Position numbers and translations under genes: made by a program
Part shown: positions 35,296 to 35,605 of the stretch, piece after piece
Position numbering within the stretch: the stretch's first letter is position 1
How the letters are laid out: each line of letters begins with the position of its first letter
The notes under the pieces: model-generated
Database searches by the model: none
What the model was told of the DNA's origin: nothing
What the model saw: the letters and a program-made list of their open reading frames with translations, nothing else
NCBI GenBank assembly: GCA_017399405.1
Contig: JAFQCT010000010.1
Span: forward strand, 124,001-188,000
Direction: 5' to 3'
Length of the DNA: 64,000 bases
From: Clostridia bacterium
Lineage (GTDB): Bacteria; Bacillota; Clostridia; Oscillospirales; Acutalibacteraceae

Positions 35296-35380
35296 GGGTA
35301 GGTTCCCGAGTGGCCAAAGGGAGCAGACTGTAAATCTGCCGTCGACGACTTCGGTGGTTCGAATCCACCCCTGCCCACCA
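35296..35380 (+). tRNA. tRNA-Tyr (anticodon GTA)
   Basis: 85 nt including encoded CCA, a class II tRNA with a long variable arm (CGTCGACGACTTCGG region). Acceptor GGGTAGG/CCTGCCC, anticodon stem GCAGA/TCTGC around CTGTAAA, anticodon GTA, T-arm GGTGGTTCGAATCCACC. Its T-arm and 3' end are copied in inverted and direct orientation in the adjoining repeat. Confidence 0.97.
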
Positions 35381-35381
35381 A

Positions 35382-35420
35382 AATTAAGAGTACTTCCTTT
35401 GAAGTGCTCTTAATTTTTTT
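35382..35420 (+). terminator. Terminator of tRNA-Tyr
   Basis: AATTAAGAGTACTTC, CTTT loop, GAAGTGCTCTTAATT followed by TTTTT, right after the CCA end. Confidence 0.88.
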
Positions 35421-35605
35421 GTTCGTAAAAAAGGGGTGGATTCGAAAGCCCGTCAAGAAAACGATTAGGGGAATCGTTTTTAGGGCGTGGATTTACAAGA
35501 TGTTTCGCATTATTATCACTATTAAGCGAATCATATACAATATAATTATAAGATGTAACCCCTGCCCACCAAAAAAGAGTTTTCCAATAGGAAGACTCTT
35601 TTTTA
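35421..35605 (+). repeat. tRNA-Tyr-attached 191-bp repeat with inverted T-arm and duplicated tRNA 3' end
   Basis: In order: an inverted copy of the tRNA-Tyr T-arm, GGGGTGGATTCGAA (35433-35446), beginning 52 nt after the CCA; a GCCC/GGGC stem enclosing an AAAACGATT/AATCGTTTT hairpin (35448-35485); AT-rich sequence with GCGAA/TTCGC pairing; a second copy of the tRNA 3' end, ACCCCTGCCCACCAAAA (35558-35574), identical over 17 bp to 35367-35383 and offset by 191 bp; then a second terminator. The layout and spacing match the repeat after tRNA-Arg at 4163-4421. Open frames here encode nothing recognisable. Confidence 0.82.
35571..35605 (+). terminator. Second terminator of the tRNA-Tyr repeat
   Basis: AAAAAAGAGTTTTCC, AATA, GGAAGACTCTTTTTT. 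Its stem sequence differs from the first terminator, unlike the Arg locus where both are nearly identical. Confidence 0.85.

Follow-up and report, generated by a model that had tools for sequence, protein, structure and literature searches.

Small folded elements with host-matched arms at the 3' ends of tRNA genes in Acutalibacteraceae and related Oscillospirales

The window, a stretch of 64,000 nucleotides from contig JAFQCT010000010.1 of the Clostridia bacterium assembly GCA_017399405.1, carries a complete tRNA-Tyr gene (gta) with an encoded CCA at positions 35296..35380 of the forward strand (ARAGORN; Rfam RF00005). On the same strand it is followed by a proximal terminator hairpin with its T-run (35381..35422; sequence and fold) and, beyond a spacer, by a 15-nt exact reverse complement of the T-arm of this tRNA (inverted T-arm, 35432..35446; AGGGGTGGATTCGAA), whose first base lies at +52 past the CCA. 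A structured body comes next (35447..35557), recognized by its fold and by a covariance-model match with an E value of 5.5e-5, the weakest of the eight such matches in the genome. Pattern and fold place a core hairpin, AAGAAAAC..GTTTTTAGG, within a GCCC/GGGC stem at 35455-35484 of this body. Sequence comparison identifies a 14-nt exact, CCA-terminated direct copy of the tRNA-Tyr 3' end at 35558..35571 (+178 to +191 past the CCA; ACCCCTGCCCACCA), and a distal terminator occupies 35572..35605. This outer terminator is probably the ancestral one, by analogy with the empty tRNA-Arg sites found in other genomes. The direct copy begins at about tRNA position 63, and the Tyr element lacks the small stem P2 found in most other copies.

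The tRNA-Arg gene (acg) of the same window lies on the reverse strand (4422..4498; ARAGORN) and is followed on that strand by a 17-nt exact inverted T-arm (4353..4369; GGAAGGGATTCGAACCC) with its first base at +53 past the CCA, a structured body (4248..4352; fold and covariance-model E value of 1.5e-7) with its core hairpin at 4304-4333 (pattern and fold), and an 18-nt exact direct copy of tRNA positions 59-76 (4230..4247, +175 to +192 past the CCA; ATCCCTTCCGGCGTGCCA). A near-identical second terminator and then a decayed second inverted T-arm fill 4161..4229, as judged from the sequence and the comparison of flanks. The order from 5' to 3' is CCA, terminator, spacer, inverted T-arm, hairpin body, tRNA 3'-end copy with CCA, and second terminator. 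The original prediction had described a near-identical layout behind the two tRNA genes with arms matching the local tRNA; both points are confirmed by the sequence, and the spacings that it gave (52, 139/140, and 191/192 nt) are correct within one base.

The source assembly comprises 1.96 Mb in 21 contigs, with 39 tRNA model matches and 40 ARAGORN entries. Direct repeats of at least 14 nt within 400 nt downstream (less at contig ends) are found behind only six of these 40 entries (Tyr, Arg, Thr-ggt, Pro-ggg, Leu-gag, and Leu-tag), all of which match the covariance model, four by construction. The full layout is also present behind Thr-ggt, Pro-ggg, Leu-gag, and Leu-tag, and a partial one behind Gln-ctg and Gln-ttg. 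For the core hairpin pattern, 0.01 occurrences would be expected in the window; two were observed, exactly at the Tyr and Arg elements, and a similar pattern has these same two places as its only occurrences in the whole genome. Both flanks fold much better than dinucleotide shuffles (z of -7.05 for Tyr and -8.10 for Arg), with the terminators included in the folded stretches. Elsewhere in the source genome (L038), tRNA-Leu-taa was called twice in convergent orientation at a distance of about 330 nt, which gives rise to a 52-nt inverted match.

A covariance model (R1) built from four well-aligned copies of the source genome recovered 8 copies there, the four model copies included (E ≤ 5.5e-5). 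Larger searches, run under stricter filters that lose weak matches, found R1 in 58 of 148 relatives: 36 of the 40 members of the genus, its own genome included, and 11 each from other genera of the family and from other families of the order. Across the phylum, 3 of 299 genomes gave a match, source genome included. Loci taken around the listed matches were searched again and gave 86 plus 69, or 155, matches, of which 143 were retained, representing 142 distinct copies; the 12 that were dropped comprise 6 duplicates from overlapping loci, 2 cuts by contig ends, and 4 weak, partial, or antisense matches. A tRNA or tmRNA called by ARAGORN lies 5' of the element on the same strand, the sole side and strand searched, in 116 of the 142 copies. 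The host labels span 28 tRNA anticodons and tmRNA (2 copies), some assignments being doubtful by distance (e.g., L168). Among the 26 copies with no called host gene, several adjoin gene fragments, such as the 3' part of a tRNA-Lys (L057, source genome) or of a tRNA-Trp (L072), and others adjoin contig ends or masked or decayed sequence.

The units measure approximately 160 to 220 bp, which leaves no room for a gene. Widely varying spacing had been named as a finding that would speak against the original prediction: the distance from the CCA to the inverted arm of first units is mostly 42 to 58 nt, while that from the inverted arm to the second CCA ranges from 99 to 172 nt with the class of the body. 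Rfam models detected only tRNAs over the window and no family at gathering score over the elements, and a group I covariance model gave no match at E ≤ 10 for the Tyr and Arg copies or at E ≤ 1 for five other loci. The elements are real and outside Rfam, and they are widespread in one genus and among the relatives of that genus.

Arms could be scored in 101 of the 142 copies; the other 41 had no called tRNA, a tRNA end without CCA, or a misplaced T-loop or inverted loop. The scored copies show the arrangement of a tRNA genomic island, in which an intact tRNA gene and a 3' fragment of it bracket the element in the same orientation. The 18 nt of the direct copy (positions 59-76) agree with the own tRNA at a mean of 16.9 positions, compared with 10.3 for other tRNAs, and 71 of 101 are perfect. 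The 7 nt of the inverted arm (reverse complement of 59-65) match the own tRNA at a mean of 5.09 positions, a score lowered by some arms that the script mis-anchored, and match tRNAs of other identity at 3.63; the highest of 2,000 permutations reached 3.97. Perfect inverted arms number 35 of 101, and 5 of 101 have no match at all. Tracking of the own tRNA by the inverted arm holds at 59-65 and falls to background from 66 onward. Since positions 60-62 are nearly invariant across tRNAs, this specificity resides mostly at 59 and 63-65. Chance palindromy of T-arms is rejected because tRNAs are told apart by these positions and by the acceptor portion of the direct copy. The transposition of one fixed sequence, which the original prediction had already doubted, is likewise excluded, since the arms follow the host tRNA and near-identical bodies carry different local arms. 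Arms unlike the adjacent tRNA, the other finding that it had taken as contrary, are rare: the arms nearly always match, except that 10 of 101 direct copies agree at just 8 to 12 of 18 positions.

Overall, the inverted copy tracks tRNA positions 51-65, and the commonest extent of the direct copy is T55 to CCA. Among 85 scored copies, unbroken identity of the direct copy extends back to position 54 (n = 12), 55 (n = 44), 56 (n = 5), 57 (n = 1), 58 (n = 5), or 59 (n = 18). The base preceding T55 is G in 42 of 56 copies. A small stem, P2, was detected in 93 of 101 copies, and its 3' strand equals positions 51-53 of the local tRNA in 78 of these 93 (mean agreement of 2.82 out of 3, against 2.30 in permutations, with a permuted maximum of 2.46). 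This implies that the inverted arm faces a copy of the T-arm that the body splits between 54 and 55.

The original prediction had argued for a mechanism that copies or selects the sequence of the host tRNA. The direct arm needs no such mechanism, because a copy of this sort is what every insertion of the island type leaves at the 3' end of a tRNA; for the inverted arm the proposal still stands as one possibility, next to a guide and to adaptation through selection for pairing. Copying from mature tRNA is less likely, given that at L085 and L137 the tRNA end was found without CCA and the direct copy lacks it as well. Snap-back copying across the terminator was dismissed because the Tyr spacer, judged by eye, does not correspond to a reverse-complemented acceptor end. 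Nor is a target duplication of constant length (22 bp) general, as the starts of the direct copies and the Tyr element show.

The folded unit consists of an outer stem P1 formed by the inverted arm and the direct copy, the small P2, a stem that bears the AAAAC..GTTTT hairpin, a third hairpin, and a short right-hand stem. In an alignment of 119 distinct copies (100 of loci L053-L173, E ≤ 1e-9) that was fitted to the model, which favors covariation, 95.9% of cells pair, 44 of 47 pairs vary on both sides compared with 31.8 in shuffles, and covariation is 0.45 compared with 0.15; slid controls collapse. The P2 loop is GNGA in 64 of 93 copies. Mispairs are G-T in 174 cells and A-C in 36, although G-T is rare overall and 106 of the G-T cells are confined to three columns. 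A mutual-information scan for additional tertiary pairs gave no clear pseudoknot. The GNGA loop and the G-T bias, read from the alignment, point to a structured RNA of the top strand, with a folded DNA strand as a possible alternative; both features count against a pure DNA site.

The most similar body lies behind a different tRNA in 60 of 101 copies and behind the same tRNA in 41 of 101. The best pairs of bodies behind different tRNAs are 90 to 93% identical (Glu/Pro/Arg, Glu/Leu, Gln/Leu, and Lys/Ser), some of them within one genome, where identities are 91 to 92% (Glu/Leu and Pro/Arg in G004; Lys/Ser in G009). No such pair exceeds 93%, so no very recent move is in hand. The segment between the CCA and the inverted arm is barely common to like bodies at different tRNAs (identity of 0.54 versus 0.49), leaving the left edge of the moving piece ill-marked. 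Flipping of the body was not supported: 116 of 142 copies are co-oriented with the upstream tRNA, the other 26 falling outside this test, and the rpsI units described below are antisense to the gene.

The reverse situation, dissimilar bodies at one tRNA, was found at tRNA-Arg-acg, which was compared at 22 loci of one genus, two more being cut by contig ends. Six dissimilar body types occur there (normalized local score between types of ≤0.31, one neighbor pair excepted within a type), and several of them have the core hairpin in common. The body at L181 is identical at 84 of 97 positions to the Gln-ctg body of the source genome. Remnants with no body are present at L176, L178, and L179, and the stretch examined contains no unit at L182, L186, L187, L189, L191, L194, and L195. 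In 4 of 11 filled tRNA-Arg loci the distal flank corresponds to the post-tRNA sequence of an empty locus (scores of 23.5 at L177, 31 at L188, 25 at L193, and 51.5 at L196), where shuffled maxima are 10 to 16.5 and the proximal flanks of the same loci score ≤12.5. Since the flank past the last copy matches the empty locus, the outer terminator is the old one in these 4 loci; in the other 7 of 11 no displaced flank was recognizable. Tandem arrays hold 2 or 3 units. In 24 of 74 loci the similarity between proximal and distal flank exceeds the 99th percentile for mismatched pairs, which indicates tandem duplication. A platform with no body (inverted arm, small loop, and direct arm) was not found among the loci examined.

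The core hairpin pattern occurs in at least 116 stretches, and the 80 stretches listed include Bacteroidota- and Alphaproteobacteria-titled records and a complete Oscillospiraceae genome; 5 viral contigs were also matched. Of 84 pattern matches in the 80 listed loci, 24 have a tRNA 40 to 400 nt upstream, 48 have none, and 12 are too near a contig end. Among the matches listed, the body is flanked on both sides by the end sequence of the rpsI gene, CAGTTCTCAAAGAGATAA or a near variant of it, at L224, L239, L247, and L280. The host gene was recognized as ribosomal protein S9 by Pfam at L239 and L247 and by eye at L224, and was not seen at L280; the core hairpin is antisense to the gene in these units. 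The genome of Robertkochia marina (Bacteroidota; L227, L331, L335, L337, L339, L340, and L341) contains six dispersed core-hairpin copies, several of which adjoin a sister hairpin framed by CCGAACG..AGTGAGGGGCCAG, with the look of a REP-type family. In L237, at 1885, the hairpin sits inside a broken tRNA-Lys copy past the anticodon arm, and an apparently intact tRNA-Lys follows. In L228 (Oscillospiraceae CE91-St43), at 5004, it caps a REP-like palindrome, GGATGAGGG..CCCTCATC, of which a further copy with another apex lies near the L327 match. At L329 (Ichthyenterobacterium magnum) it is directly 3' of what we take to be a TPP riboswitch-like motif.

A co-occurring tyrosine recombinase, which the original prediction had proposed to look for, was found beside att cores of the same kind at two places, although no single protein was found to accompany the element. 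In the source genome, an integrase gene (PF00589, E value of 4.7e-29; L016:1689-2858) lies directly 3' of tRNA-Lys, and a tRNA-Lys 3' fragment running from T54 to the CCA precedes the element in L057, on a different contig; the integrase side and this fragment may be the two ends of one island. At L280, a Phage_integrase gene is followed by an rpsI-type core copy, the element, and a second core copy. The search for an accompanying protein covered Y1 transposase, reverse transcriptase, and TnpB as well, none of which tracks the element or is supported as its partner. Y1_Tnp is absent from 5 of 10 element-bearing members of the genus (G000, G004, G022, G036, and G039) and present in G002 and G029, both of which lack an R1 match. 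RVT_1 was found in 3 of 13 element-bearing genomes (G025, G031, and G140), the source genome being among the 10 that lack it, and in 1 of 10 element-free genomes. The TnpB domain PF07282 scores above cut-off in 2 of 13 element-bearing and 0 of 10 element-free genomes; at an E value of 0.001 these become 5 of 13, the source genome being a weak sub-threshold case, and 2 of 10.

The reading that we favor, tentatively and as possible rather than probable, is a family of protein-free integrative micro-elements at the sites of tyrosine recombinases. It is preferred for the island geometry and for the tRNA-Lys integrase with its matching T54-CCA fragment. The starts of most direct copies in the T-loop, the integrase gene at L280, the displaced flanks and the dissimilar bodies at tRNA-Arg, the like bodies behind different tRNAs, and the tandem arrays also speak for it; the 7 of 11 loci with no recognizable displaced flank, the ill-marked left edge, and the RNA-like features speak against it. 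The unit consists of terminator, short spacer, inverted T-arm, structured body, and a copy of the host 3' end, and its insertion would keep the host tRNA or tmRNA complete and push the original terminator to the far side. Entry would take place by site-specific recombination at the T-loop, at sites used by tyrosine-recombinase islands and with enzymes supplied in trans; that a recombinase acts on the element is inferred from the geometry and the neighboring integrases. Like the end of any tRNA island, the direct arm would thereby match its host. The inverted arm would pair with the direct copy in P1 and, through P2, with the copy of positions 51-54, so that it would span the junction T54|T55. 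It might be kept in register by the action of a folded single strand, as in attC sites, by guiding to the target, or by selection for pairing. An attP derived from one tRNA would create a hybrid tRNA at another, and classical recombination alone therefore does not account for the change of arms; moving to a different tRNA requires copying, a guide, or adaptation. Adaptation is possible because few T-arm positions vary, and a guide is possible because a splint would lie across T54|T55. T-loop integrases can be strict, as described for Ms6 vectors with the natural core, by which a site with one difference in 26 bases went unused (PMC1762012). The variable starts of the direct copies (54-59, and about 63 in Tyr) count against recombination of this kind.

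The same observations were weighed against three other explanations. One, which we hold to be somewhat unlikely, sees old tRNA-linked modules with no dedicated mobility that are homogenized by host recombination; tandem duplication, ectopic gene conversion acting on the bodies, and template switches from one palindrome arm to the other would produce the local arms. Tandem duplication is indeed plain in the arrays and the 24 of 74 loci, few base changes suffice to fit a new T-arm, inverted arms persist without bodies as relics, and none of the three enzyme families tracks the element; however, six dissimilar body types and empty sites at one orthologous tRNA within the genus suggest repeated gain, and 28 anticodons plus tmRNA would all have to be old sites. 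Sporadic presence among the species of one genus and dissimilar bodies at one tRNA also speak against a host RNA that would influence, in cis, how the tRNA is terminated or processed at its 3' end, as do the tandem arrays and the related hairpins at rpsI and in other contexts. We consider such a regulatory role highly improbable, even though the fold is conserved, the distance to the CCA is near constant, and a called tRNA or tmRNA precedes 116 of 142 copies on the one side and strand searched.

An RNA-based or RNA-guided insertion is the third alternative, in which a mobile structured RNA would target T-loops with the inverted T-arm as a built-in guide or splint that pairs to either side of T54|T55, much as bridge RNAs and the internal guide sequences of group I introns do. 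The strong covariation, the GNGA-closed P2 (64 of 93 copies), and the identity of its 3' strand with local positions 51-53 (78 of 93) agree with it, and so does the G before T55 in 42 of 56 copies, the base with which a group I intron would end; introns of this group are known from tmRNA T-loops (PMC11915505). Yet no Rfam family, group I included, matches the body, which is merely about 70 to 135 nt long, RVT_1 is missing from 10 of 13 element-bearing genomes, PF07282 exceeds its cut-off in 2 of 13, and the upstream host tRNA is already complete. We regard this explanation as unlikely. Its most specific form is distinctly doubtful: a new class of mobile structured RNA of about 70 to 135 nt, with no protein of its own, seated at T54|T55 of tRNA, tmRNA, or partial tRNA copies, its inverted T-arm a reprogrammable splint or guide renewed for each host.

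Compared with known systems, the elements resemble the tRNA islands, ICEs, and prophages of tyrosine integrases in using the 3' end of a tRNA or tmRNA gene as site, in the regenerated intact gene and displaced 3' fragment, in the T-loop crossover subsite, and in tandem arrays, as these are characterized in the Islander description (PMC4383910). The Islander procedure, as outlined there, demands an integrase and at least 2 kb (PMC4383910), so elements of this kind would be filtered out. Unlike these islands, they are gene-less at about 160 to 220 bp and possess a conserved folded body and an inverted T-arm. The attC arrays of integrons are series of units that each close with a palindrome; its outer arms agree with the double-stranded target, and its interior varies. 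Arrays of palindrome-ended units are the likeness here, the palindromic geometry alone being observed, but the arms of the elements are tRNA T-arms in place of integron core sites, and body sequence is conserved within a class. In group I introns, the guide pairs with both flanks. Those of tmRNA are located in the T-loop and follow a boundary rule of U before the intron and G at its end (PMC11915505). The elements share the T-loop seat, the boundary rule, and a guide-like pairing with both flanks, but differ in a body too short for such an intron, with no Rfam group I match, in a putative guide placed 5' of a partial T-arm copy, and in the intact host. REP/BIME and MITE-like palindromes are small, protein-free, structured, dispersed, and often tandem. 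The elements are alike in all of these respects and unlike in their position at tRNA or tmRNA (and rpsI) 3' ends, their host-specific arms, and a Y1 transposase that does not track them.

As a kind, the elements described here have an intermediate place among tRNA islands, attC-like palindromes, and T-loop introns. No account of such elements was found in the open-licence full-text literature, which is weak evidence of absence; together, the findings suggest an undescribed kind of site-specific mobile element. Mobile DNA of bacteria classically lands at the 3' ends of tRNA genes, and most species of one genus have these units of about 190 bp at such sites, with ends refitted to each tRNA. If mobile, the units would rank with the smallest integrative elements that are site-specific, and a change of target that involves no change of protein would become testable; if RNA-guided, they would represent a new guide system.
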